In this document: positions 3,310-40,391 of the stretch, piece by piece | How the letters are laid out: every line of letters begins with the position of its first letter | Numbering within the stretch: the first letter of the stretch is position 1 | Origin: Rathayibacter tritici | GTDB taxonomy: Bacteria > Actinomycetota > Actinomycetes > Actinomycetales > Microbacteriaceae | NCBI RefSeq assembly: GCF_002932875.1 | Contig: NZ_PSWS01000039.1 | Span: 1-64,000 of the forward strand | DNA length: 64,000 nucleotides | Direction of reading: 5' to 3' | The notes under the pieces: model-generated | What the model was told of the DNA's origin: nothing | Database searches by the model: none | The model's input: the letters and a program-made list of their open reading frames with translations, nothing else | Made by a program: the position numbers and the translations under genes

Positions 3310-4626
3310 CTATCCTGTGACGAGACCCGCTCCCCAGGCCTCCGCAATATTCTGGATCGAGGTGAAGCCGACGCCTCGATAGCAGTCGACATCCTCCGAA
3401 TGCGCCAATGACGGGCACGAGGTGGGAGTGTTGCCGTACTGAATCATCCCGACTGCCCCGAATCCGTCAGACCAGGGCACGACCATTGGTCCGCCACTGT
3501 TCCCTCCTGCGTTGATCCAATCGTCCTTTTCGGCTTGGATGTTGTAAAAGGGGTCGCCTTGTCCATCATTCCAGAGAACCGCCATATTATCGATGACGCC
3601 ACCGCAGGATACACCGGTATTTCCGCCCTCGGAACACACTTCATTCCCGATTCCGATAGCTTGATGTCCCTTCACGGGAACGCTTGAGGAGGAGTTCACC
3701 CCGCCGTCGAAGACTCTGCCCGAGCCTGCGGATTCGAGGCGAGCAGCCCCATAGTCAGGAGACGTTGCGACGATGCCGCCGAGATGGGACGAGTAGTTGT
3801 CATACGATGTCCAGGAGCCGCCGGGCGGTTGACAATGACGCGCCGTCGTCGTCGCATTGTTCGAGTCGAATCGCAGTGAGAACCCCGATGAACAGACTGC
3901 GCTGTTCGCCTGAACGCCGAAGTACGAGTACATGAACCCGCCGCCGTAGTACGGAGCGTTGTCGTCATTGCGCGATGCTGTGGCGTGGTTCACAGCCTTC
4001 ACGTCGGACGTGATCTGCGTCGAAATCGGCCCGAGGGATGAAAGCTTGTCCTGAATGAGGGAACGCGCTTTTTCGCCGAGGGAGTTCGCGTTCTGTGCTG
4101 TTGTCGGGTCGACATAAGACCCGACAACCACAAGATCCGCGGTGTCCTTACTCAGAGTTTTGACCGCACTGATGACGAACCCGAGCTTCCGGAATTCCTC
4201 GGCGGCAGCCATCGTTGCTCGGGCCTGCCGGTCAATGTCCTTCCAGGCGAAGGGACGGTCGACAATCGTCACGTCGAGGTTCAACTCTTTGCCTCTGGCG
4301 ACCGCAGCGGCGCTGAGCGGTGACGCTCCGCTCCAGTACAATTCGTAGCTTCGGTTGTCTGCGGAGACGGCCCCGAAGAGGAAGCCCTGATCCTGTGCCT
4401 TGTTCTCATCGAGCCAATCGAGAAGAGACCCGGCTCCGCGCTCGTAGTCCAGACGATTCCAGCCGACGCGATCGATGAAGTCCTGCACCTCGGGAGAGAA
4501 GTGCCAGGGATCTTCTTGTTTCTGGTCGGACTGCGATGGAGGCGGGGGAGAGGGCGTCGCTGCGGCTGTTACCGTACAGGTAAGAACGGCGAGTAGGGCG
4601 ATGCCGACTAGGGCTGTTGGGCGCAC
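3310..4626 (-). CDS. Secreted trypsin-like serine protease with pro-region
   Basis: A 438-residue secreted S1-type peptidase. A signal peptide covers residues 1-23, followed by a Pro-rich linker and a long pro-region (about 40-215). The catalytic domain shows His264 in TTTARHC, Asp291 in SPDYGAARLE and Ser377 in GGNSGGP. Cysteines at 245/265, 331/341 and 404/415 could form three disulfides. The layout, with a large pro-domain before a chymotrypsin fold, recalls streptogrisin/alpha-lytic-type proteases. The start is GTG with AGAGGA 9 nt upstream. The gene is less GC-rich than most of the window. The substrate is unknown, and a role in host or nutrient proteolysis is inference. Confidence 0.85.
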   Translation of the reverse strand: MRPTALVGIALLAVLTCTVTAAATPSPPPPSQSDQKQEDPWHFSPEVQDFIDRVGWNRLDYERGAGSLLDWLDENKAQDQGFLFGAVSADNRSYELYWSGASPLSAAAVARGKELNLDVTIVDRPFAWKDIDRQARATMAAAEEFRKLGFVISAVKTLSKDTADLVVVGSYVDPTTAQNANSLGEKARSLIQDKLSSLGPISTQITSDVKAVNHATASRNDDNAPYYGGGFMYSYFGVQANSAVCSSGFSLRFDSNNATTTARHCQPPGGSWTSYDNYSSHLGGIVATSPDYGAARLESAGSGRVFDGGVNSSSSVPVKGHQAIGIGNEVCSEGGNTGVSCGGVIDNMAVLWNDGQGDPFYNIQAEKDDWINAGGNSGGPMVVPWSDGFGAVGMIQYGNTPTSCPSLAHSEDVDCYRGVGFTSIQNIAEAWGAGLVTG

Positions 4627-27196: not shown

Positions 27197-28312
27197 TTAC
27201 GCGTAGGCGCGCACGGTCTCCCTGATCGTCTGGGCGTGCTCATAGATCTCGTCGAGGGCTGCGATCGGGTGCCGGGTCTCGTTCTTCTCCGCGTCGAAGG
27301 TGCCGAGGTACTTCTGCTTACGGTTGAAGTGTAGGCGGGCCACCGGTTTGCGGTTGTTGTCGTCCAGAATCACGGCGAAGTACGATTTCGCGTCTCTCTG
27401 CGCGATCCGGTTCACCTTCACCTCGCTGCAGGCGATGGCCTTGATGATCTGGAAGGCCTCGAGCTCCTCCAGAGTTGTCTCGATGTCACTCTGCTCCTCG
27501 AGTTCCTCCTCGACGACGGCCTGGCTGGTGAGCGACTGTTCTGCTGCGATCGCCTCGGTGCGAGGGAAGTTGGGCGCACCGAGAGCGGTTTTCAGCCGCT
27601 CATTGACCTGTTCGTTGAGAAATTGCTTGGACGCCTTCGACACCAGTGCCGAGAACTGCTCTCGCACTTTCTGCGTGTAGGCGCCTTCGTAGACCCGGGT
27701 GGTGAAGAACTTGATCCACTCGTCGCTGGGGGCAGCGAACTGGGTGCCGAGCTCCCGTTTCAGCTGTCCGATGTACTTGAGTTCGCCCGCCGCACTGATA
27801 ATCGAATCGAGGTCGAAGACCTCCTTGGTCAGCTTCGTCAGCTCGGGGATGAGTGTCTCGTCGATGTCCGTCAGGTCCAACACGAGGAACGGCTTCGCAT
27901 CCATCCGATTCGGAGCGTCGAGGTCGGTGTAGAAGTGGTACTGCTCGCCGTTGGTGAGGATCGCGATCCTCGCAGTGGTGACCGCGAAGTAGCGGAACAG
28001 CTGCGATGCGTGCTCGATGCGCAAAGGTTCCGTGGACTTTTTGCATTCGATCAGCATCTGCACGTCGCCGTTGTGAACGATGGCGTAATCGATCTTCTCG
28101 CCCTTTTTCACCCCGACGTCCGCGATAAATTCCGGGACGACTTCGAGTGGGTTGAAGACGTCGTAGCCGAGGATCGTCGAGATGAAGGGCATGATGAAGG
28201 CGTTCTTCGTCGCCTCCTCCGTCTGGATGATCTCGCGTTGTTGATGGACCTTTGTCGCCAGAGCGATGAGTCGTTCGGTGAATTCCACGGTTCCCCCAGG
28301 TGAAGCTGACAT
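27197..28312 (-). CDS. Stand-alone HsdR_N-type restriction endonuclease
   Basis: A 371-residue protein. The N-terminal domain (about 8-160) matches the nuclease domain of type I restriction R subunits: Asp75 in GEKIDYAIV and Glu89-x-Lys91 in MLIECKK form a PD-(D/E)xK site, with a Gln in HASQLFRYF. No helicase motor, HsdM or HsdS gene is nearby. The C-terminal part has a separate beta-rich domain (about 310-370). The start could instead be GTG 28381, which overlaps the upstream stop by GTGA. The shorter ATG at 28312 fits relatives better. Confidence 0.82.
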   Translation of the reverse strand: MSASPGGTVEFTERLIALATKVHQQREIIQTEEATKNAFIMPFISTILGYDVFNPLEVVPEFIADVGVKKGEKIDYAIVHNGDVQMLIECKKSTEPLRIEHASQLFRYFAVTTARIAILTNGEQYHFYTDLDAPNRMDAKPFLVLDLTDIDETLIPELTKLTKEVFDLDSIISAAGELKYIGQLKRELGTQFAAPSDEWIKFFTTRVYEGAYTQKVREQFSALVSKASKQFLNEQVNERLKTALGAPNFPRTEAIAAEQSLTSQAVVEEELEEQSDIETTLEELEAFQIIKAIACSEVKVNRIAQRDAKSYFAVILDDNNRKPVARLHFNRKQKYLGTFDAEKNETRHPIAALDEIYEHAQTIRETVRAYA

Positions 28313-28377
28313 CGATACAAACGAATGTTCTCCGATGAATGTCGTCAGCGCGACCCCCTTCCGTGGGGCTCTTCTCA

Positions 28378-29106
28378 TCACACCCGCCGCGGCAGTGTGA
28401 ACACCGTCTCGACTCCTGGCGAGTACAGCACCGAGTCCGGCGCCCGCGACGCCAGCCCTGGGAAGCCGGCCGTCTCGAGCAGACCGTCATCGAGCGCCAG
28501 CAGTTCCGCTCGGTGCAGCGGCCACGGACGGTGCAGGTTCCGTCCGTACCAGGTTGAGCCCACGTGTCGCTCGTGGTAGGCCCAGCGTGCGGTGAGGAAC
28601 GAGGCCAGCGGATCGTCGCCCGTGGGCTCTCCGGGGCGCACGACGATCCGCGAGTGGGCGGTCGCGTTCGTGTGCCGGATGGTGTCGTAGATCACCGCGC
28701 CGTGACGGTGCTCGATGCTCATCCGAGCCCATCGGTAGGGGAGCCCGAACACCGCCTGCGCCGTCAGCACGGGCACCAGGTGCGCCGCGTCGAGTGAGAC
28801 GAAGACGACGCCCCGACGCCCGTGTTCGTCGACGGAGTAGAGGCGCACGTTCACCTCGGGGAACGTGCCGAGCCACGGCACCCGCGGTCCGCCGAGGAAG
28901 GCCGTCCGCGAGAGCCGGAACGGGATGAGGCCTACCCAGGATGAACCGTCGTGCTCGTCCGGCCGGGTCCCGGGCGGCAGGTGGGGCGCCACCAGTGCGG
29001 GGTCGACGCGCCAGTGCAGGAAGGTCGCCTCGGTCCAGCGCTGCCGCAGGATGCGCGCTCCGCCGAGCGGAGGCGCGGAACGGGTGACGGGTTCGACAGA
29101 GATCAC
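28378..29106 (-). CDS. DUF2071 (YqjF-like) acetoacetate-decarboxylase-fold protein
   Basis: A 242-residue protein. Family segments are TFLHWRVDPALVAPHLPPG near the start, WVGLIPFRLS, PEVNVRLYS and YRWARMSIEH, ending in a strand with VYSPGVET-like sequence. The fold resembles acetoacetate decarboxylase, but no enzymatic activity is established for DUF2071. The GTG at 29106 was chosen because the conserved domain begins about 17 residues later. It is divergent from an EamA transporter. Confidence 0.82.
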   Translation of the reverse strand: MISVEPVTRSAPPLGGARILRQRWTEATFLHWRVDPALVAPHLPPGTRPDEHDGSSWVGLIPFRLSRTAFLGGPRVPWLGTFPEVNVRLYSVDEHGRRGVVFVSLDAAHLVPVLTAQAVFGLPYRWARMSIEHRHGAVIYDTIRHTNATAHSRIVVRPGEPTGDDPLASFLTARWAYHERHVGSTWYGRNLHRPWPLHRAELLALDDGLLETAGFPGLASRAPDSVLYSPGVETVFTLPRRV

Positions 29107-30326: not shown

Positions 30327-31532
30327 ATGACCGAGGCCCTGCAGCCGCCCGTCCAGAATGCCCTCTCGCTCACACCGCCAGAGCCGGTGGCGGCGGTGCC
30401 GACCACCTCGGCGCCGTCGATCGCGCCGAAGGTCCCGGAGGCGGCCCTGCCCGGCCTCGAGGCCAAGGTGGACGGCTACCTCGACACCCTCCTGTCGACC
30501 GAGGCGCGCAGCCCCGAGTTCGCGACGCGGGCCAACGACATCCGCACGATGGGCGACGCCGACATCCGCTCGGCCGCGGACTCGTCGAACCGGCTGCTGA
30601 GCACGCCCGTGCGTGCACTGAAGGAGGGCGGGCTCTCGGAGGGATCGACCATCGGCAAGACGCTGCTCGAACTGCGTCGCACGGTGGAGGATCTGGATCC
30701 GTCCGAGGACAACGTGCAGAAGAAGATCCTCGGCTTCATCCCCTTCGGCAACAGGATCACCGACTACTTCCGCCGGTACGAGAGCGCCCAGTCGCACCTC
30801 AACGCCATCATCCAGGCCCTGTACGACGGGCAGGACGAGCTGCGGAAGGACAACGCGGCGCTCAACCTCGAGAAGCAGAACCTCTGGGAGACGATGTCGC
30901 GTCTCAACGAATACATCTACGTCGCCGAGCGGCTCGACGTGAAGCTCTCGGCGAAGATTGCGGAGCTCGATGCGTCCGACCCGGAGCGGGCGAGGGCGCT
31001 GCGCGAGGACGTCCTCTTCTACGCGCGCCAGAAGCACCAGGACCTGTTGACTCAGCTCGCCGTGTCGATTCAGGGGTACCTCGCGATCGATGTCGTCATC
31101 AAGAACAACGTCGAACTCATCAAGGGTGTCGACCGCGCGACGACCACCACCGTGTCGGCGCTGCGTACCGCGGTCATCGTCGCGCAGGCGCTCGCCAACC
31201 AGCGTCTCGTCCTTGATCAGATCACCGCGCTCAACACGACGACGTCGAACATGATCGAGGCCACCTCGCGCATGCTCGCCGACCAGTCGGCCTCGATCCA
31301 ATCGCAGGCCGCCTCCGCCACCGTCGGGCTGCCGCAGTTGCAGGCCGCATTCGCGAACATCTACCAGACGATGGATTCGATCTCGGACTTCAAGATCAAG
31401 GCGCTCGACAGCATGGCCCAGACCGTCGGGGTCCTCCAGACCGAGACGGCCAAGGCGGGCGATTACGTGGAGCGCGCTCGCCGCAGCAACTCGGACATCG
31501 ACGCGGCGTCCTCGCTCGATCTCGGCCGCTAG
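30327..31532 (+). CDS. TelA/KlaA family (toxic anion resistance) protein
   Basis: A 401-residue, mostly helical cytoplasmic protein of the TelA family. Landmarks are KKILGFIPFGNRITDYFRRY, LNLEKQNLWETMSRLNEYIY, YLAIDVVIKNNVELIKGVDR and TTTTVSALRTAVIVAQALA. TelA relatives confer tellurite or antimicrobial and envelope-stress tolerance by an unknown route. The ATG at 30327 has GAGGA 6 nt before it and is preferred over a GTG at 30315. It is the first gene of an eight-gene unit ending with the PknG and PP2C genes. Confidence 0.92.
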   Translation: MTEALQPPVQNALSLTPPEPVAAVPTTSAPSIAPKVPEAALPGLEAKVDGYLDTLLSTEARSPEFATRANDIRTMGDADIRSAADSSNRLLSTPVRALKEGGLSEGSTIGKTLLELRRTVEDLDPSEDNVQKKILGFIPFGNRITDYFRRYESAQSHLNAIIQALYDGQDELRKDNAALNLEKQNLWETMSRLNEYIYVAERLDVKLSAKIAELDASDPERARALREDVLFYARQKHQDLLTQLAVSIQGYLAIDVVIKNNVELIKGVDRATTTTVSALRTAVIVAQALANQRLVLDQITALNTTTSNMIEATSRMLADQSASIQSQAASATVGLPQLQAAFANIYQTMDSISDFKIKALDSMAQTVGVLQTETAKAGDYVERARRSNSDIDAASSLDLGR

Positions 31533-31535
31533 CCG

Positions 31536-32099
31536 ATGGGCTGGTTCTCCCGACTGTTCTCGGGCGCCCCCGCTGAGCCGGAGGAGACCGCGCCCGCTCT
31601 GCCGCGCGTCCCGACAAGCGAGGACATCCTCGCGGCGCTCGACCGGGTGAGCAGCCGGACCGAGGGGCAGGTGCCCGGAATCGTCGCGGCTCGCATCCAG
31701 CGGATCGACGAGACCGTGCGCGAGATGGTGCCCCGACTCGACCGCCTCGGCGGGATGAGCAGGCAGGGCCACACCGTCGTCGCGACCGCGACCAGCTACC
31801 TCCCCGAGGCGGTCGAGGGGTACCTCCGACTGCCGAGGGACTTCGCCGACCGCCGCGCCGTGCACAAAGGGAAGACCTCGCTGATGATCCTCTGCGACCA
31901 GCTCGACCTCCTCGGGGGCACGCTCGACCGCATCTCGGACGCCGTCTCGCGCCAAGACGCCTCAGCGCTGATCGCACACGGGCAGTTCCTGGCGGAGAAG
32001 TTCACGGACTCCTCGCTCTCGCCGAGTGGTCTCGACGCGCCCCCGCAGCCCGGCAGTTCGTCCGGGCCCGGCTCGCTGACCCCGCCGAGTGCCTCGTGA
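31536..32099 (+). CDS. XpaC-like small helical protein
   Basis: A 187-residue protein. Residues 1-15 are a short hydrophobic start (MGWFSRLFSG). The centre (about 28-155) is helical, with MSRQGHTVVATATSYLPEAVEGYLRLP, a region similar to XpaC/5-bromo-4-chloroindolyl phosphate hydrolysis proteins that accompany TelA in many Gram-positives. The tail is Ser/Pro-rich. Family assignment is tentative. Its stop overlaps the AAA gene start (GTGA). Confidence 0.7.
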   Translation: MGWFSRLFSGAPAEPEETAPALPRVPTSEDILAALDRVSSRTEGQVPGIVAARIQRIDETVREMVPRLDRLGGMSRQGHTVVATATSYLPEAVEGYLRLPRDFADRRAVHKGKTSLMILCDQLDLLGGTLDRISDAVSRQDASALIAHGQFLAEKFTDSSLSPSGLDAPPQPGSSSGPGSLTPPSAS

Positions 32100-33613
32100 C
32101 CACGCTCGCGCCGGCACTCGACGCCCTCGTGCTCGCGGGGGTAGCCGCGGGTCTTGACGCCGCCGTCGTCCGCGAGGAGGGTGCGCGGCTGGCCGCCGCC
32201 GTCGCCGAGTCGATCCGCGGGGCCGGCCAGGACTGGCTTGCTGCCACCGGCGCGACGGGCGGCCTCGAGGCCTTCTTCACCGCCGCCTCGAGGGGTCGGC
32301 GCTGGCGGTCGGCGCCGACCGATCAGCTCTTCGCGCTGGCCGGCGCGGGTTCCTCGCACGCCGTGGCCTATGCGCGTGCCCTGACCGAGGTCGTCTCCGC
32401 CGCGAGCGCACTCGGCGACCCCGGCATCGGGGGTATCGCCTCCGCCTCCGCGACGGCTGCAGCCCAGCTCGCCGCGGTCCCGGGGGCCCGCGGGACGACC
32501 CCGACGGGGAGCGGAGCAGCGACGGTCGCGGGCCCCGCGGACGGCATCGGCGGGGCCACTTCTGCCGGGTTTCCCGCAGGCGTTCCCGGGGTCGACGAGA
32601 TTATTGCCCGTCTGCGCCGGACCGAGCACGACGGCCCACAGGACGAGGCGGCCCGCACCGCCGCGGCCGTCACCGAGCCCGCGCCCGAAGCGGAGCCACT
32701 CGACCCGCCCGAATCCATCGACGACCTGCTCGCCGAACTCGACGCCCTGACCGGGCTCGACCGGGTGAAGAGCGAGATCAAGCGGCAGACTCAGCTGCTC
32801 CGGATCGACACGCTGCGCCAGGCCGCCGGGCTCAGCACGCCCACACTCACGCGCCACCTCGTCTTCACGGGGAATCCCGGCACGGGGAAGACGACCGTCG
32901 CGCGGCTGGTCTCGAGGATCTACCGCTCGCTGGGCATCCTCTCGAAGGGGGTGCTCGTCGAGGTCGACCGGTCGGAGTTGGTAGCCGGCTATCTCGGGCA
33001 GACCGCGACGAAGACGGCCGAGGTCATCGCCTCGGCGCGCGGCGGGGTCCTCTTCATTGACGAGGCGTACGCGCTCGCGCTCGATCAGTACGGGGCGGAG
33101 GCGGTGACCACGCTCGTGAAGGATATGGAGGACCACCGGGGCGACCTCGTGGTGATCGTCGCCGGCTACTCCGGTCCGATGCAGAGCTTCCTCGAGACGA
33201 ACCCCGGCCTCGCTAGCCGCTTCTCGACCACGATCGACTTCGCCGACTACTCCGACGACGAGCTCTCGGCGATCTTCGGTCGGCTGGCCGCCTCCGCGGA
33301 CTTCGAGCCGACGGAGACGGCGCTTGCCGCGTTCGCCGAGCTCGCGTCGGCGCAGCAGCGCACGGAGGCGTTCGGCAACGGGCGCTGGGTACGCAACGTC
33401 CTCGACGCCGCGATCGCCCGCCATGCCTGGCGGCTGCGCGACGTGGAGGAGCCGACGCTCGACGAATTGCGGATCCTGCTCCCGGAAGACATCGTGGAGA
33501 GCCCGGAGGACGGCGGGAGCCCTGGGGACGCCTCCGACGCCTCCGACGCCACGACCACCGACAGCGGCACCGAGCCCCCCGCCCCCGGCAGCCCCGAGGA
33601 GGAGTCCCCATGA
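32096..33613 (+). CDS. CbxX/CfqX-type AAA+ ATPase
   Basis: A 505-residue protein. A helical N-terminal region (1-110) and a Gly/Ala-rich linker (110-200) precede one AAA+ module (about 205-470). Walker A is GNPGTGKT (259-266), Walker B is GVLFIDEA (317-324), and a sensor/Arg region is in GLASRFSTTIDF. The C-terminal 40 residues are acidic and low-complexity. The module is of the CbbX/EccA type, which remodels protein complexes. Its place in the TelA-PknG unit suggests it acts on a TelA or GlnX-linked assembly. The GTG start is coupled to the upstream stop. Confidence 0.9.
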   Translation: MTTLAPALDALVLAGVAAGLDAAVVREEGARLAAAVAESIRGAGQDWLAATGATGGLEAFFTAASRGRRWRSAPTDQLFALAGAGSSHAVAYARALTEVVSAASALGDPGIGGIASASATAAAQLAAVPGARGTTPTGSGAATVAGPADGIGGATSAGFPAGVPGVDEIIARLRRTEHDGPQDEAARTAAAVTEPAPEAEPLDPPESIDDLLAELDALTGLDRVKSEIKRQTQLLRIDTLRQAAGLSTPTLTRHLVFTGNPGTGKTTVARLVSRIYRSLGILSKGVLVEVDRSELVAGYLGQTATKTAEVIASARGGVLFIDEAYALALDQYGAEAVTTLVKDMEDHRGDLVVIVAGYSGPMQSFLETNPGLASRFSTTIDFADYSDDELSAIFGRLAASADFEPTETALAAFAELASAQQRTEAFGNGRWVRNVLDAAIARHAWRLRDVEEPTLDELRILLPEDIVESPEDGGSPGDASDASDATTTDSGTEPPAPGSPEEESP

Positions 33614-34935
33614 GCACCGCCCAGGCCGCGCCCCCCGCGCAGAGGCTCCCCGAGTCGCCTCCCGTCCAGGTCGCCCACCGCCCTGCTCCGCGCAGACCCT
33701 CCCTCCTTGCCCGTGCGACCGCGACCACACCGGGCGCGCTGCGCCTCCTCCTCGCGCTGACGGCGCTGGCCGCCGTCCTCTTCGGCGTATTCGCGCAGCA
33801 GGCCGGAGCGATGCAGGCGCGTGCCGCGACGACGGCCAGGGAGCAGTCGGCTCAGCTCCTCGGCGTGCAGAACGTGCGCACGATGCTCGTCGACGCGAAT
33901 GCGATCGCGGCGAACACCTTCCTCGTCGGCGGGCTCGAGCCGACCGAGCTGCGTGCGTCCTACGTGTCGAGCCTCACGGGCGCCGCGTCGGCGATCGCCG
34001 GACTGTCGGCCGCCGATTCGGCCGACACCGCAGCCCTCGCCCGTGTCGCGAGCAGCATCACGACCTACAGCGGTCTGATCGAGCAGGCCCGCGCCAACAA
34101 TCGCCAGGGCTTCCCCGTTGCGTCGGCGTATCTCGATCAGGCGTCGGCGGCGCTCTCGGGGGACGGCGGCATCCTCGAGGACCTCGACGGGCTGGTCAGC
34201 TCCGGCGCCGACCGGGTGGCGTCCGCCTACGACGCCGTCCGCTGGAGCGTCCTGCTGCTGATCGGCTCGCTCGTGATGCTGGTCCTCCTCCTGGCGGCGC
34301 AGGTCTGGCTGGCCCGGCGCACCCACCGCTACCTCAACCGTCCGCTCGCGACCGGCACCGCCCTCCTGCTCGTCCTGGGCATCGGCGGTGCGCTCGCCTA
34401 CGGATCGGTCGCGGCAGACGCGGGGACGGCCCGCGTCGAGTCGTACCGCGAAGCGCTCACCGTCTCGAACGCCCTTATCGCGGCGAGCGACGCCAAGTCG
34501 CTCGAGAGCTTCACGCTGATCACACGCGGGTCCGGTGCAGCCCTCGAGGAGCGGTACACGCAGGCGGTCGCGTCGGCGCGCGACAAGCTCTCGGGTGACC
34601 TGCGGGACGAGTCGGCGCGGACGCGGCTGGTCGACGAGTTCGGGCAGTGGCAGTCGTTCCACACGGAGATTCGGAAGGCGGACGAGGCCGGGAAGTGGGA
34701 TCAAGCCGTCCGCGTCGCCACGGCGACCGGGACCGGCACGCCGAACGACCTTTTCAGCACCTTCTCCAGCGACGCCCGCGAGGTGGTGCAGGAGAAGGCT
34801 GTAGCCGCCGCTACGACGCTTGACCGGGGCGCGGAGTTCTCCTCCCTGGTCTCCTGGGTGCTGTTGGCGTCGGGTCTCGCGGGCGCCGTGTTCGCCTGGC
34901 GGGGCGTCGCCCAGCGACTGGAGGAGTACCGATGA
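33610..34935 (+). CDS. glnX: GlnX-like four-TM sensor protein
   Basis: A 441-residue membrane protein with four TM segments (about 44-63, 212-236, 247-270, 412-430) separating two extracytoplasmic helical domains. The length and position match mycobacterial GlnX (Rv0412c, about 440 aa), which with GlnH relays extracellular amino-acid levels to PknG. Direct sequence identity cannot be judged here; the call rests on topology and the following glnH and pknG genes. ATGA overlaps at both ends show tight coupling. Confidence 0.82.
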   Translation: MSTAQAAPPAQRLPESPPVQVAHRPAPRRPSLLARATATTPGALRLLLALTALAAVLFGVFAQQAGAMQARAATTAREQSAQLLGVQNVRTMLVDANAIAANTFLVGGLEPTELRASYVSSLTGAASAIAGLSAADSADTAALARVASSITTYSGLIEQARANNRQGFPVASAYLDQASAALSGDGGILEDLDGLVSSGADRVASAYDAVRWSVLLLIGSLVMLVLLLAAQVWLARRTHRYLNRPLATGTALLLVLGIGGALAYGSVAADAGTARVESYREALTVSNALIAASDAKSLESFTLITRGSGAALEERYTQAVASARDKLSGDLRDESARTRLVDEFGQWQSFHTEIRKADEAGKWDQAVRVATATGTGTPNDLFSTFSSDAREVVQEKAVAAATTLDRGAEFSSLVSWVLLASGLAGAVFAWRGVAQRLEEYR

Positions 34936-35900
34936 ACCGGTTGCGCGCCGCCGCCCTCGCCCTGGTCACCGCCGCAGCTCTCGCCCTTGCCGGGTGCAGC
35001 ACGGGGGCCGACGACCTGGGCGCGCCCCTGGCCGCCGCGTCTCCGACTCCGACAGCGAGCTCCGCCGCTCCTGCCGCTCCTGCCGCCGCCGACTGTTCGC
35101 CCTCGGCCGTCACCTCCTACGCGCCGACCGGCGTGACCGACAGCACCCGGCTCGCCGAGATCCGCGGACGCGGGACCCTGCGCGTCGGTGTCTCGGCCGA
35201 CACGCTGCTGATGAGTGCCCGCAACCCCATCACCGGAGCGATCGAGGGCTTCGACGTCGACATCGCCCGAGAGGTCGCCCGCGCGATCCTCGGCACCGAT
35301 GCCATCGACTACGTCGTGATCACCTCCGCCCAGCGCCTCCCAGCGCTCACGGGCGGCGACGGCGCCCCGCAGGTCGACATGGTCGCGCGCACTCTCACGA
35401 TGACCTGCGACCGCTGGAGTTCGATCGCGTTCTCGGCGGAGTACTACGACGCCGGTCTCAAGGTGCTCGTCTCGGACGACCCCGAGGGCGTCCCGGTCAC
35501 CGGCATCGGTGACCTCGATGGCAAGCGGGTCTGCGCGCCGAGCGGCACGACGACGCTCAGCCGGATGCAGAACGACTACCCGGAGGTGGACGCCGTCGAG
35601 GCCGCCACGCACTCGCAGTGCCTCGCGCTCTTCCAGGCCGGCGAGGTCGATGCCATCGCGGGCGACGACACGATCCTCGCGGGTTTCGTGGCGCAGGACC
35701 CGTACGCGAAGGTCGTCGGCGACGCGCTGAGCTCGGAGCCCTACGGCCTGGGGCTGCCTGCCGACGATCCCGACTTCGTGCGTTTCGTCAACGCCGCGCT
35801 CGAGACCATGCGCAGCGACGGCCGCTGGCAGAGCATCTACGGGCGCTGGCTTGGTGTCCTCGGCGACGCCTCGCCTCCGGCTCCGGTGTACGGCCGATGA
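34932..35900 (+). CDS. glnH: GlnH-like solute-binding lipoprotein (family 3)
   Basis: A 322-residue lipoprotein. The lipobox is LAGC (Cys22), followed by an Ala/Pro/Ser linker. The bi-lobed SBP_bac_3 domain (about 75-308) has the start RGRGTLRVGVSADTLLM, GFDVDIAREVARAILG, and an Arg/Asp ligand pocket in VDMVARTLTMTCDRW. In Mycobacterium and Corynebacterium, GlnH binds aspartate, glutamate or asparagine and signals through GlnX. No ABC permease or ATPase gene is adjacent, in line with sensing rather than transport. Confidence 0.9.
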   Translation: MNRLRAAALALVTAAALALAGCSTGADDLGAPLAAASPTPTASSAAPAAPAAADCSPSAVTSYAPTGVTDSTRLAEIRGRGTLRVGVSADTLLMSARNPITGAIEGFDVDIAREVARAILGTDAIDYVVITSAQRLPALTGGDGAPQVDMVARTLTMTCDRWSSIAFSAEYYDAGLKVLVSDDPEGVPVTGIGDLDGKRVCAPSGTTTLSRMQNDYPEVDAVEAATHSQCLALFQAGEVDAIAGDDTILAGFVAQDPYAKVVGDALSSEPYGLGLPADDPDFVRFVNAALETMRSDGRWQSIYGRWLGVLGDASPPAPVYGR

Positions 35901-37039
35901 GCACCGGTCTCGCGGAGGGGACGCCCGCCGCCCCGGGTCGGCTCGGGGAGGCCGCGCCGCAGCGCGAACTCTTCGAGTATCTCGCCGCGCTCACCCGCTG
36001 GCTGCAGCGGACGACGCGCGAGCTCTCGCGTGTGGACGCTGCCGCGCTGGCGTCTCCGCAGGCCGAGAACTACACGGCCGACGTGGTGCTCGCTCAGTCG
36101 CTGCGTGAATCCGTCACCCGGCGTCTCGCCGAACTCGAGGTCGTCTGGGACTCCGGTCGCGTCGACGTGGTCGCGCGAGAGCGGATGTCGCAGCTGATCT
36201 GGGGGCGCCTGGACGCCTCCGGGAGCGGCGCCGTGTCGCTGGTGGAGGCTGTGCGCCTGTGCGACGCGGTCGTCGGCCAGCTGCGCTCCCGGCTCGAGCT
36301 CGACCCGAGCGGCACGGACGTCGCCGGACGGATCGTGGGGGTGCGCGCCGAGATCGAGCGTTGCCGCGACCTGACCCGCGACGGCGGAGGCACCGTCGAT
36401 CGCGCGCGAGCGGAACGGGTGGACGTGTTGCGCTCCCGGCTCGACGCGCTCGCCGAGAGGGCGGGTCGGGGAGCCGACGTGTCGGGGCCGCTCGGACAGC
36501 TGGAGAGCGACTCCGCCCGGCTCGAACGCGACCTGATCATCGCTGCGTCGGAGCGGCGCGGGCTCGAGCGCGATCGCCGTCGAGCCCGCGAGCTGGCCGA
36601 GGCGGCCGAGCGCCGTGAAGTACCGCTGCGGGAGCTGGTGGCCCGATGCCGCCGCGAGATCGCCGACCCGCCTCGCCTCGCCGTGCCCGACGTCTCGCGC
36701 CTCGGGGAGCCTCCGCTGAACCGCGAGGAACTGGACGCGCACCTCGTCCGACTCACGGCCGTCGGCCGAGCCTTCGACGCGGTCGAGGCCGCCTACACAT
36801 CGCCGCTGCGCGAGCGCGCCGCCCTGGGCTTCCGCCTCCGGGCGCTGCGGGAGCGCGCCGAGGGCAACGGCCGAGCTGCCACCCCGGTCGGACTCGCGGC
36901 CGCGGAGGAGGTGCGCGCCGCACTTGAGGCGGTGCCCTGCTCCGTCCCGCTCGCCCGCCATCTGGTCGAGCAGTACGACGTCGTCACCCGCGACCTCCCG
37001 CACCACGAGCCCGCGCACCACCGGAAGGCCACCCCATGA
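35897..37039 (+). CDS. Unknown helical/coiled-coil protein between glnH and pknG
   Basis: A 380-residue soluble protein that I do not recognise. It has no signal peptide or TM helix and is rich in Arg, Glu, Leu and Ala, with heptad-like stretches at about 75-110, 150-190, 205-250 and 290-320. The start (ATGA overlap with glnH) and the end (overlap with pknG) show that it is an integral part of the unit. In Mycobacterium tuberculosis, glnH is followed directly by pknG, so this gene is an addition. A scaffold or adaptor between the membrane sensor and the kinase is a guess. Confidence 0.8.
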   Translation: MSTGLAEGTPAAPGRLGEAAPQRELFEYLAALTRWLQRTTRELSRVDAAALASPQAENYTADVVLAQSLRESVTRRLAELEVVWDSGRVDVVARERMSQLIWGRLDASGSGAVSLVEAVRLCDAVVGQLRSRLELDPSGTDVAGRIVGVRAEIERCRDLTRDGGGTVDRARAERVDVLRSRLDALAERAGRGADVSGPLGQLESDSARLERDLIIAASERRGLERDRRRARELAEAAERREVPLRELVARCRREIADPPRLAVPDVSRLGEPPLNREELDAHLVRLTAVGRAFDAVEAAYTSPLRERAALGFRLRALRERAEGNGRAATPVGLAAAEEVRAALEAVPCSVPLARHLVEQYDVVTRDLPHHEPAHHRKATP

Positions 37040-39372
37040 ACGGCGCCCCCTGCACCGCGACCCCCGGCTGCACCGGAACGATCGAGGACGGCTACTGCAA
37101 CGTTTGCGGCCTGCCACCCGAGGACGCTGCTGCCGCGTCCGCTCCCACCGCCCGTCGCGCCGCGCCCGCTCCGGCACCCGCTCCGGCGACCGCGTCCGGC
37201 GCCTTCGGCACCGGCTTCGCCGAGGGCACCCCCCGCGCAGCCGCATCCGGCCCCGTGGAGGAGCCGGCCACCGCGCGAAGCACCCGCACCTCCTCCGCCC
37301 GCCTCGCCACCGCGGCCCTCGGCTCCGCCCGCACGGCGCAGACCGGCTCGAGGGTCACCCGCCGTGTCGGCACCACCTCGACCCGCCTCCGCGGCCCGCG
37401 TCTGGGTGCCGGACTGACCACCGTCCCCTCCCGCCCGGCCGCCGATCCGATGGCCGCGCTGATGACCGAGGCGGTTCTCCCCGAGCGCAAGCGATTCTGC
37501 TCGCACTGCGGCACGGCCGTCGGCCGCGGACGCGACGGGCGGCCCGGACGCACAGAGGGCTTCTGCCCCACCTGCCGCACGCCCTTCTCGTTCACCCCGC
37601 AGCTGAAGCGGGGCGACGTGGTCGGCGGGCAGTACGAGGTGGTCGGCTGCCTCGCCTACGGCGGCCTCGGCTGGATCTACCTCGCGCGCGACCGGAACGT
37701 CTCGGGACGCTGGGTCGTGCTCAAGGGCCTTCTCAATTCCGGTGACCCCGACGCCTACGCGGCGGCCGTCACCGAGCGCCGGTTCCTGGCCGAGGTCGAG
37801 CACCCGCTCATTGTCGAGATCTACAACTTCGTTCTGCACGACGGCGCCGGCTATATCGTGATGGAGTACGTCGGCGGGCCGAGCCTGAAGCAGATCCTGA
37901 AGGAGCGGCTGGACGCGAACGGCGGCGCCGCGGATCCGCTGCCGGTGGATCAGGCGCTCGCGTTCGTGCTGGAGGTGATGCCCGCGTTCGCCTACCTCCA
38001 CGATCAGGGCCTGCTCTACTGCGACTTCAAGCCCGACAACATGATTCAGGTCGGCGATCAGGTCAAGCTGATCGACCTGGGTGGAGTGCGCCGGATCGAC
38101 GATGAGGACTCCGCGATCTACGGCACCGTCGGCTACCAGGCCCCCGAGGTCGCCGACCTCGGGCCCTCCGTCGCCTCCGACGTCTACACGATCGGCCGCA
38201 CACTGGCCTCGCTCGTGCTCGACTTCCGCGGCAACCAGACCACCTTCGTCGCGTCGCTACCGCCGGTCTCCGAGACGCCGCTCTTCCAGCGCTACGACTC
38301 CTTCTACCGCCTGATCTCGAAGGCCTGCGCTCCCGACCCGCAGGACCGCTTCGCGACCGTCGACGAGATGCGCGGCCAGCTGCTCGGCGTGCTGCGCGAG
38401 GTCGTCGCTACCGATCGCGGCCCCGGGCATCCCGCGCTGCACTCGACGGAGTCGGCCCTGTTCGAGGCACCCGTGGCCGACGTGGTCGACCGCGTCCCGC
38501 CGTGGGACGCACTGCCGGCGCTGCGCCGTGACGAGTCCGACCCGGCCCGGTCGTGGCTCGCAGGCGTCAACGTCGCCGACCCGATCGTGCGTCTGCGTGC
38601 CCTCGCGCTCGCGCCCACCGTCACCGTCGAAGTGCGCCTCGCCCGCGCCCGCGCGGCGATCGAGGCCCAGCGCTGGGAGGAGGCGGCGCGCGCGACCGGC
38701 GAGATCCTCACCGAGGATCCGTGGGAGTGGCGGGCGGTGTGGATGAGCGGCCTCGCGCAGCTCGCGCGCGGCGATGATGTCGGCGCTCGTGCCTCCTTCA
38801 ACACTGTCTACGGGCAGGTCCCCGGCGAGCTCGCCCCCAAGCTCGCGCTCGCCGCAGCCTGCGAGGCGAGCGGTGAGCCCGAGGTCGCCGAGTCGCTCTA
38901 CGTGATCTGCGCCCGCGCGGATGCGAATTACACCGCTCCGGCCGCCTTCGGCCTCGCCCGGGTGCGGCAGCTGCGCTCCGACCTCGACGGAGCACTCGAC
39001 GCCCTCGACATCGTCGCGCCCACTCGTTCCTCCTACGCCGACGCGCGCCGCCGCCGAGCGGAGCTACTGGCGGAGTCGGACCGGGGACTGCCCGCGCTCT
39101 CGGCCGCCCTCGCGAGCGTCGACTCCGTGTCCATCGACCAGCGGACCCGCCTGGAGCTGACGACGCAGGTCCTCGCTTCCGCGCTCGAGCTGGTGCACCG
39201 CGACGGTCCTGCCGAGGGTGCGAACCTCGGCGGAGTCGAGGCGAATGAGGCCGCGATCCGCGACGGCCTCGAGGCCTCCTACCGCGCGCTCGCCGCCTCT
39301 ACCCGCGAGCGCGATGAGCGCGTGCGTCTCGTCGACCGGGCCAACGAGGTCCGACGCTGGACGCTGACATGA
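37036..39372 (+). CDS. pknG: PknG-type Ser/Thr protein kinase
   Basis: A 778-residue soluble kinase with the full PknG layout. An extra zinc ribbon comes first (Cys6, 12, 21, 24). A disordered tail follows with a TTST motif at 113-116, matching the autophosphorylation/FHA-docking region of PknG. The rubredoxin-like domain has Cys155, 158, 177 and 180. The kinase domain spans about 197-455: AYGGLGW loop, Lys230, catalytic Asp330 in CDFKPDN, DLGG and APE. A TPR-like C-terminal domain runs to the end (TLAPKLALAA-type repeats). Spacing from the rubredoxin cysteines to Lys230 equals that in the mycobacterial enzyme. It is expected to phosphorylate an FHA-domain regulator of 2-oxoglutarate metabolism. 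Confidence 0.95.
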   Translation: MNGAPCTATPGCTGTIEDGYCNVCGLPPEDAAAASAPTARRAAPAPAPAPATASGAFGTGFAEGTPRAAASGPVEEPATARSTRTSSARLATAALGSARTAQTGSRVTRRVGTTSTRLRGPRLGAGLTTVPSRPAADPMAALMTEAVLPERKRFCSHCGTAVGRGRDGRPGRTEGFCPTCRTPFSFTPQLKRGDVVGGQYEVVGCLAYGGLGWIYLARDRNVSGRWVVLKGLLNSGDPDAYAAAVTERRFLAEVEHPLIVEIYNFVLHDGAGYIVMEYVGGPSLKQILKERLDANGGAADPLPVDQALAFVLEVMPAFAYLHDQGLLYCDFKPDNMIQVGDQVKLIDLGGVRRIDDEDSAIYGTVGYQAPEVADLGPSVASDVYTIGRTLASLVLDFRGNQTTFVASLPPVSETPLFQRYDSFYRLISKACAPDPQDRFATVDEMRGQLLGVLREVVATDRGPGHPALHSTESALFEAPVADVVDRVPPWDALPALRRDESDPARSWLAGVNVADPIVRLRALALAPTVTVEVRLARARAAIEAQRWEEAARATGEILTEDPWEWRAVWMSGLAQLARGDDVGARASFNTVYGQVPGELAPKLALAAACEASGEPEVAESLYVICARADANYTAPAAFGLARVRQLRSDLDGALDALDIVAPTRSSYADARRRRAELLAESDRGLPALSAALASVDSVSIDQRTRLELTTQVLASALELVHRDGPAEGANLGGVEANEAAIRDGLEASYRALAASTRERDERVRLVDRANEVRRWTLT

Positions 39373-40391
39373 GCGCCGCGCTCTCGACTCCCTGCCCGAC
39401 CTGCGGCGAGCCGGTCACCACGGGTGACGCGTTCTGCGAAGCCTGTGGGACGCCGCTGATCGTCGCGGCCGCCGCCTCCACTCCGCCCGTCGCCGTCGCG
39501 GCGCCCGCGAGCTGCGTCTTCTGTGGCGGAGTGGTCGCCGAGGACGGCTACTGCGAGCAGTGCGGCCGCCCCGCGCCGAGCGAGCGCGAGCACTGGGCCG
39601 AGGCGCCGCACCCGCTCGTCGGCGGCGTCTGCGACCGCGGGCTCCGCCACCCCGCCAACGAGGACGCGATGGCGATCGGAGCGACCGCGGGCGAGGACGG
39701 CACTCTGCGGACGGCGCTCCTCGTCGTGTGCGACGGAGTCTCGTCGACCCCCGACTCCGACAGAGCGTCGCTCGCCGCGGCCCGGGCCGCGCTCAGCGCG
39801 CTGCAGGCCGAGGTCGGCGGCGAAAGCGAAGGAGCGGACCGCTGGCGTGCGCTCCTGCAGATGGCGACCGCGCGCGCCTCCGGAGCGATCGACGCCGCCC
39901 TGCCCGGGAAGCGGGCGAATCCGCCCTCGTGCACGTTCACCGTGGCAGTGCTCGACGGAGCGCTCCTCGTCACCGGCAATGTGGGGGACAGCCGCAGCTA
40001 CTGGATCCCGGATGCCGGCGAGCCCCGGCAACTGAGCGTCGACGACTCGTGGGCGCAGGAGCAGATCGCGTCGGGAGTGCCGCGGGAGCAGGCCGAGACG
40101 GCGCCCGACGCGCACGCGATCACCCGGTGGCTCGGCGCCGACGCGCACGACGAGGAGCCGCGCGTCGCCTCCGAGGAGCTGACCGAGGCTGGCTGGGTGC
40201 TGGTCTGCTCCGATGGGCTGTGGAACTACGCGTCGGCCGCAGACGACCTCGCGCGCGTGCTCCGCGAGGCGCAGGAGCGGGTGGGCGCCGATCCGGTGAC
40301 CCTCGCGGAGGCGCTGGTCGCCTGGGCGAACGAGCGCGGCGGGCACGACAACATCACGGTCGCGCTGGCCCGCTTCGTGCTTGCGGACTAG
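39369..40391 (+). CDS. PP2C-family phosphatase with two N-terminal zinc ribbons
   Basis: A 340-residue phosphatase. Two four-Cys ribbons come first (Cys9, 12, 23, 26 and Cys49, 52, 62, 65). The PP2C domain spans about 85-338, with metal-binding residues in RHPANEDA, VVCDGVSS, VCSDGLWNY and GGHDNIT. It is the last gene of the unit, coupled by ATGA to pknG, so it is the obvious antagonist of PknG. The zinc ribbons echo the one on PknG and on the FHA protein at 52.8 kb, suggesting a shared docking or redox-sensing module. Confidence 0.93.
   Translation: MSAALSTPCPTCGEPVTTGDAFCEACGTPLIVAAAASTPPVAVAAPASCVFCGGVVAEDGYCEQCGRPAPSEREHWAEAPHPLVGGVCDRGLRHPANEDAMAIGATAGEDGTLRTALLVVCDGVSSTPDSDRASLAAARAALSALQAEVGGESEGADRWRALLQMATARASGAIDAALPGKRANPPSCTFTVAVLDGALLVTGNVGDSRSYWIPDAGEPRQLSVDDSWAQEQIASGVPREQAETAPDAHAITRWLGADAHDEEPRVASEELTEAGWVLVCSDGLWNYASAADDLARVLREAQERVGADPVTLAEALVAWANERGGHDNITVALARFVLAD

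Follow-up and report, generated by a model that had tools for sequence, protein, structure and literature searches.

A 64,000-nucleotide stretch of the Rathayibacter tritici genome (contig NZ_PSWS01000039.1, positions 1 to 64,000; hereafter the window) contains a unit of ten genes in which a TelA-family gene and its companions are fused to an operon encoding GlnX, GlnH, and the Ser/Thr kinase PknG. Eight of the genes run without interruption from 30327 to 40391, and two more stand downstream. Among the loci sampled, the fusion goes back to a single event, and its two halves meet in an overlapping seam between an AAA ATPase gene and glnX. The GlnX-GlnH-PknG core was already known, and the enlarged operon with its TelA fusion would be the new part. 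No paper on a PknG-TelA operon was found in full-text literature searches, with subscription papers and the STRING pknG-neighbourhood figure of PMC6069109 outside the coverage. The initial annotation of the window had taken the eight genes to suggest a complete circuit not known as a described system; the novelty lies in the enlarged, TelA-fused operon, and the unit is not complete in eight genes, those for a vWA and an FHA protein having been overlooked.

Ten genes in conserved order

All eight reading frames of the run are open and lie on the same strand. A 3-nucleotide gap separates telA from gene 2, and the remaining six junctions are 4-nucleotide overlaps; coordinates, strand, and seams thus agree with those first reported. 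The genes of the unit, and the block that interrupts it, are as follows.

30327..31532, + strand: telA, the first gene; TelA/YaaN family, ATG to TAG, 401 amino acids; PF05816 at E 5e-92, 308.9 bits against a cut-off of 30
31536..32099, + strand: gene 2, 187 amino acids; occupies the XpaC position; no family match above cut-off
32096..33613, + strand: AAA ATPase of the CbxX/SpoVK/EccA type; AAA and AAA_lid_6 above cut-off; N-terminal region of about 200 amino acids without family assignment
33610..34935, + strand: glnX, membrane signal transducer; NF058618 at 269.3 bits against a cut-off of 250
34932..35900, + strand: glnH, amino-acid binding lipoprotein; SBP_bac_3
35897..37039, + strand: gene 6, all-helical protein without known family
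37036..39372, + strand: pknG; N-terminal zinc ribbon, rubredoxin, Ser/Thr kinase, and TPR; PF16919, PF00069, PF16918
39369..40391, + strand: PP2C phosphatase with N-terminal double zinc ribbon; PF13672 (PP2C_2), PF12773
40496..51483, no strand assigned: interrupting block, outside the system; aldehyde dehydrogenase, regulator, class III aminotransferase, and others
51484..52758, + strand: vWA protein, the ninth gene; PF13768, PF18571; 4fx5 at E 2e-114
52755..53759, + strand: zinc-ribbon FHA protein, the tenth gene; PF00498 above cut-off; 4-nucleotide overlap with the vWA gene

The vWA and FHA genes belong to the unit despite their displacement by 11.1 kilobases (kb) downstream. The window vWA protein is 77% identical to the one encoded directly after PP2C in locus L007, and the window FHA protein resembles the product of the FHA gene that comes after vWA in locus L050. 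The block between PP2C and vWA was seen in Rathayibacter only: in four of the five Rathayibacter genomes checked, vWA shares contig and strand with pknG and lies approximately 7 to 18 kb past PP2C, and in the fifth it lies on a different contig, the pknG contig stopping first. In loci L005, L006, and L007, vWA is found within about 1 kb after PP2C. Two observations were made in passing. The block dehydrogenase is of the methylmalonate-semialdehyde type and could pair with the class III aminotransferase in amino-acid catabolism, within an operon that itself senses amino acids. Directly past the FHA gene, on the opposite strand, a PknB-like Ser/Thr kinase is encoded at 54100-55107, and a similar gene follows FHA in L006.

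Conservation of the order was assessed in the best 80 of 263 PknG relatives (the named loci). Ten of these contigs stop before TelA and one (L014) before PP2C; each of the remaining 69 carries the eight genes in the same order on one strand, and in most named loci holding TelA as well as PknG a vWA gene and then a zinc-ribbon FHA gene follow PP2C. PknG of the window is 88-92% identical to that of five Rathayibacter loci, the nearest being R. iranicus. Seventy of the named loci hold TelA together with PknG; sorted by NCBI family according to record title, they comprise Kribbellaceae (18), Promicromonosporaceae (17), Cellulomonadaceae (13), Microbacteriaceae (11), Kineosporiaceae (3), Nocardioidaceae (2), Beutenbergiaceae (2), Intrasporangiaceae (1), and Dermatophilaceae (1), with one locus of no family and one titled Streptomyces (L066), which sits among Kribbella on the PknG tree. 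When all fetched loci were considered, TelA and PknG occurred together in 78, always on one strand, with the eight genes in order in 77 and, by aligned coordinates, all ten in order in 71. The other seven comprise two without FHA, whose contigs end soon after, four Rathayibacter loci without vWA or FHA in the fetched stretch, and L014, which ends after PknG.

The seam between the two halves is tight. The AAA-GlnX spacing was exactly -4 nucleotides in 67 of the 69 linked loci in which it was measurable, by a measure that takes the start nearest to -4 and is biased toward that value. Independently of start choice, the AAA gene closes with NTGA (N = A or G) in 77 of the 78 linked loci; among all fetched loci the same ending was found in 21 of 141 PP2C, 23 of 126 FHA, and 35 of 118 TelA genes.

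A single joining of the TelA and PknG halves

The wider distribution of the two families was surveyed in 296 genomes drawn evenly from the class. The PknG family PF16918 was above cut-off in 99 genomes and TelA in 53; at E 0.001, 39 genomes held both, and in nine of these the two lay about 8 kb apart, as read by eye. For comparison of neighbourhoods, 120 PknG regions (about ten weaker extra copies excluded) were fetched, together with 40 of the 47 sites at which TelA is unlinked. None of the 40 unlinked TelA loci contained PknG; TelA adjoined a protein weakly resembling gene 2 in 31, stood alone in seven, and was accompanied by an AAA gene in two.

A PknG tree of 196 rows was computed with FastTree (unrooted, long branches present). 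The 79 linked rows, the window included, formed one clade against 107 unlinked rows, with one change of state and a branch support of 100, and the ten contig-truncated rows, which were left unscored, lay within the linked clade. An identical split, again at 100, was obtained with IQ-TREE on 50 chosen PknG rows (25 linked, 25 unlinked). In the TelA tree (79 of 119 rows after thinning of near-copies, midpoint root), linked TelA fell in one clade (100) along with L201 and L203 (TelA-AAA) and L211 (TelA-gene 2). The genomes behind these three loci show no PknG, a pattern that looks like loss of the PknG half. In L201 and L203, TelA and the clade-type AAA persist as an overlapping pair, a natural minimal TelA-AAA form.

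Two denser samples were read in the same way. Among 199 Microbacteriaceae genomes, PknG was above cut-off in seven, all with TelA about 8 kb away; 20 more genomes held TelA above cut-off without PknG, and no AAA or GlnX was found in five fetched TelA-only loci of this family (7 kb each). Among 248 genomes of the order, read by eye, PknG was above cut-off in 29, of which 23 were linked and three had the genes on different contigs (possible contig breaks). The linked TelA is the single copy in 11 of 11 clade genomes searched; second copies in the order sample were TelA in G544 and PknG in G599. The joining of the TelA half to the GlnX/GlnH/PknG half, as initially proposed, is real, of single origin in the sample, and marked by an overlapping seam. 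The proposal had been held open to the objection that the halves might usually be apart: in the fetched loci outside the linked clade they are apart or one is absent, and within it the objection fails. One joining event, kept by most descendants, suggests that the parts work together.

Protein families, zinc ribbons, and the three-gene form

The labels TelA, CbxX-type AAA, GlnX, GlnH, PknG, and PP2C were backed by Pfam and NCBIfam matches. The label XpaC-like for gene 2 is not supported: with E values of up to 1 allowed, none of 20 members (gene 2 and 19 relatives) matched XpaC in Pfam, and their best chance match to any Pfam family lay at E 0.041. These proteins have a conserved core with a mean column identity of 60%. 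Its setting recalls xpaC-yaaN of Bacillus subtilis and lmo1966-lmo1967 of Listeria, where a TelA-family protein likewise stands next to a small partner gene, with the differences that here the order starts with TelA, an AAA gene is present as well, the partner is without a Pfam XpaC match, and the whole is fused to a pknG operon.

The AAA protein has its Walker A motif at residue 259 and Walker B at 319, and matches the structures of CbbX (3syk, E 1.9e-55) and EccA1 (9lur, E 3.8e-51). It shares the AAA and AAA_lid_6 pair with CbbX, EccA, and SpoVK, yet it scores below the NCBIfam equivalog cut-off of each (226.2 against 459.25, 229.5 against 466.65, and 251.7 against 422.95 bits, respectively) and differs from them in its unassigned N-terminal region and in its operon partners, TelA and GlnX. 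Membership in the AAA family is the ground on which it may be a remodeller. GlnX has hydrophobic stretches at 39-66, 207-236, 245-264, and 410-430; it belongs to the GlnX subfamily by NF058618 and lies under the cut-off of the protein kinase G-activating GlnX equivalog NF041460 (100.6 against 780 bits). GlnH is closest to mycobacterial GlnH (6h2t/6h1u, E about 7e-65), with an N-terminal hydrophobic stretch at 4-26, and was classed as a lipoprotein. Gene 6 had no match in Pfam or NCBIfam at E 0.01; its structure model is largely helical (predicted local distance difference test score 86.3, predicted template modelling score 0.60) and gave no Foldseek match at E 0.001. PknG is closest to mycobacterial PknG (2pzi, E 1.9e-137), with the kinase, TPR, and rubredoxin domain set over cut-off, and PP2C has the motifs NEDA, CDG, GDSR, and SDG.

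The operon shares with the GlnH-GlnX-PknG-GarA/OdhI system of Mycobacterium and Corynebacterium the three core genes and their relative order within one operon-like run, with homologous sensor, transducer, and kinase, and a close relative has a GarA orthologue. It differs in having gene 6 between GlnH and PknG, PP2C, vWA, and the zinc-ribbon FHA gene after PknG, and TelA, gene 2, and AAA before the core. PknG itself bears an additional N-terminal zinc ribbon.

Zinc ribbons were searched with the pattern C-x(2-6)-C-x(6-14)-[YWF]-C-x2-[CD]-G. In linked loci the pattern was present in 78 of 78 PknG, 77 of 77 PP2C, and 71 of 71 FHA proteins and in none of the six other operon families; in the window all three ribbons are N-terminal, and in PknG the ribbon lies upstream of the rubredoxin in all 78 linked loci. 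Outside the linked loci, the PknG ribbon was found in 52 of 71 that have PP2C, vWA, or FHA in the neighbourhood (ten of them truncated linked-clade loci or short contigs) and in four of 48 that have none of TelA, PP2C, vWA, and FHA, in counts uncorrected for relatedness.

Operons that lack TelA can likewise contain PP2C, gene 6, vWA, and FHA. Twenty-seven fetched loci have the three-gene form GlnX-GlnH-PknG, as published for Mycobacterium and Corynebacterium. In the PknG tree, 26 rows (25 three-gene loci plus L100, where PknG stands by itself) group in one clade, and the sister of this clade, L114, has PP2C, vWA, and FHA. Because PP2C, vWA, and FHA stand on both sides of deep splits, reduction to three genes is the simpler reading of this tree, which is unrooted and has L114 on a long branch, and the published form may be a reduced form of the larger operon. 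As a broader and rather tentative view, the three-gene operon could be the stripped remnant of a zinc-ribbon-assembled kinase-phosphatase-FHA-vWA complex under amino-acid control, which in one clade would command a TelA-AAA envelope-remodelling module and so make envelope integrity depend on extracellular amino acids by way of Ser/Thr phosphorylation. Separately, a second PknG-like type was seen facing GlnH-GlnX on the opposite strand (L174, L175, L177, L181, L186, L187, L188, L193, L195, and L196), and in L190 and L197 a PknG-like kinase lies between two GlnX/GlnH pairs.

Proposed working and alternatives

PknG has been studied so far in a three-gene context with no phosphatase in the operon. 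Passages of PMC6069109, PMC9769921, and PMC8546545 describe, for Mycobacterium and Corynebacterium, phosphorylation of GarA/OdhI by PknG with a requirement for GlnX and GlnH, and the first of these reports, from a STRING figure, conservation of the core arrangement across Actinomycetales. In the reading preferred here, to which about an even chance is given, GlnH and GlnX would drive a switch formed by PknG and PP2C, with FHA and vWA as its readout, and the whole would have been joined on one occasion to an envelope module of TelA and AAA. GlnH would bind extracellular acidic amino acids and GlnX relay the signal across the membrane. PknG would then phosphorylate an FHA target, namely GarA/OdhI, setting 2-oxoglutarate dehydrogenase flux, with the operon's own zinc-ribbon FHA protein as a possible second target; the operon PP2C would undo the phosphorylation. 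The N-terminal ribbons of PknG, PP2C, and FHA may serve as a common assembly element, and vWA and gene 6 as putative scaffolds. The TelA-gene 2-AAA module, set upstream once in one actinobacterial clade and kept in overlap with glnX, would be produced in fixed ratio to the amino-acid switch and probably be under its control.

Homology makes it very likely that amino acids are sensed by way of GlnH, GlnX, and PknG. We infer the remaining roles from gene context and homology, most firmly that of PP2C as cognate phosphatase, then the ribbon as assembly element, then control of TelA-AAA by the switch. For the phosphatase, the proximity seen in the initial annotation recurs, PP2C standing beside PknG in 132 of 138 loci with vWA or FHA, and its action on PknG targets stays a proposal. 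An envelope role is in keeping with the single-copy linked TelA and with published data, in that passages of PMC12791056 place TelA in tellurite/envelope stress loci and, with PMC8865564, report raised nisin sensitivity of a Listeria TelA mutant, the mechanism being stated there as unknown. The larger operon thus names candidates for a PknG phosphatase, a scaffold, and a second FHA partner, and offers a lead on what TelA-family proteins might respond to.

Several results weigh against the proposed coupling, in addition to the bias of the spacing measure. Conserved order and overlap argue for co-expression and not for interaction. The TelA-gene 2 junction is at -4 in just 8 of 78 loci and PP2C-vWA in one of 42, and PP2C is absent beside vWA/FHA in six of the 138 loci. 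Clade-type TelA and AAA occur without PknG in G092 and G284, and clade-type TelA and gene 2 in G058, so the TelA module has value alone; in the order sample, TelA lies away from PknG in G594, and G625 and G638 have PknG with no TelA found. The three genomes with clade-type TelA and no PknG, together with G594, make the halves separable. In the GarA-like proteins described below, two of 11 deviate from [DE]TT at the acceptor place (L249 PTT, L247 DTA), and the exact motif ETTSVFR was absent from all 12 genomes. The literature searches brought up no experiment on the ten-gene form.

The main rival explanation is shared transcription only, the TelA module (envelope stress) and the PknG module (2-oxoglutarate flux) being made together without cross-talk, which we regard as unlikely though to be taken seriously. 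It draws on the survival of TelA/AAA in G092 and G284, on the lack of pknG in the 40 unlinked TelA loci, and on the separate sigma-W operon that xpaC-yaaN forms in B. subtilis, according to a passage of PMC3498285. A single fusion whose AAA-GlnX seam has stayed of the overlap type in 77 of 78 loci exceeds what a shared promoter would need, although high translational coupling alone could hold it too.

A GarA/OdhI-like protein was found in 11 of the 12 relatives' loci fetched, all but that of G001 judged by eye. In the close relative G001 it is a GarA orthologue (GarA 8p5r, E 1.5e-39; OdhI 2kb3, E 1.8e-37) in which DTT replaces ETT, and [DE]TT stands at the acceptor place in nine of the 11 proteins. 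The L247 protein, from the genome of Kribbella locus L055, has by eye its own N-terminal-side zinc ribbon like those of the operon PknG, PP2C, and FHA. These proteins bear on the alternative that PknG in the large operon acts mainly on the zinc-ribbon FHA protein as its true output and no longer on GarA. The operon FHA protein does carry a ribbon like that of PknG, and the PknG ribbon occurs in 130 of 149 loci with TelA, PP2C, vWA, or FHA nearby compared with four of 48 without; against this, 11 of the 12 relatives still have a GarA-like protein (confirmed for one by comparison with the solved GarA and OdhI structures), and the FHA domain may be a reader instead of a substrate. This alternative is considered improbable.

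Still less probable is that the unit is a TerY-P-like triad (vWA, PP2C, Ser/Thr kinase) which serves in stress or in defence against phages and has adopted PknG as its kinase, with nutrient sensing secondary. The three protein kinds are adjacent in ten-gene relatives, as in the kinase-PP2C-vWA composition that a passage of PMC7699616 describes for TerY-P, active against T7-like phages; TelA belongs to the stress loci cited above, the PknG kinase domain matches PADLOC PD-T4-6 kinase models (E 5e-37), and the AAA protein matches IetA models weakly. However, the PD-T4-6 match spans a generic kinase domain, vWA had no PADLOC match at E 0.01 and PP2C reached just E 2.8e-4 in a collection that may not contain TerY-P models, and the kinase here is a PknG with GlnH/GlnX input, GlnX or GlnH standing beside it in 187 of 197 PknG loci. 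The unit is usually present in one copy per genome in one vertical-looking clade, and in the window vWA is displaced by 11 kb.

Outside the unit, the region 27197-28381, upstream and on the opposite strand, encodes a protein that by eye resembles the N-terminal domain of a type I restriction HsdR standing alone. Third-position guanine-plus-cytosine content is low for the window in the reading frames 3310-4626 (0.69) and 57108-58490 (0.73), which are possibly acquired genes.

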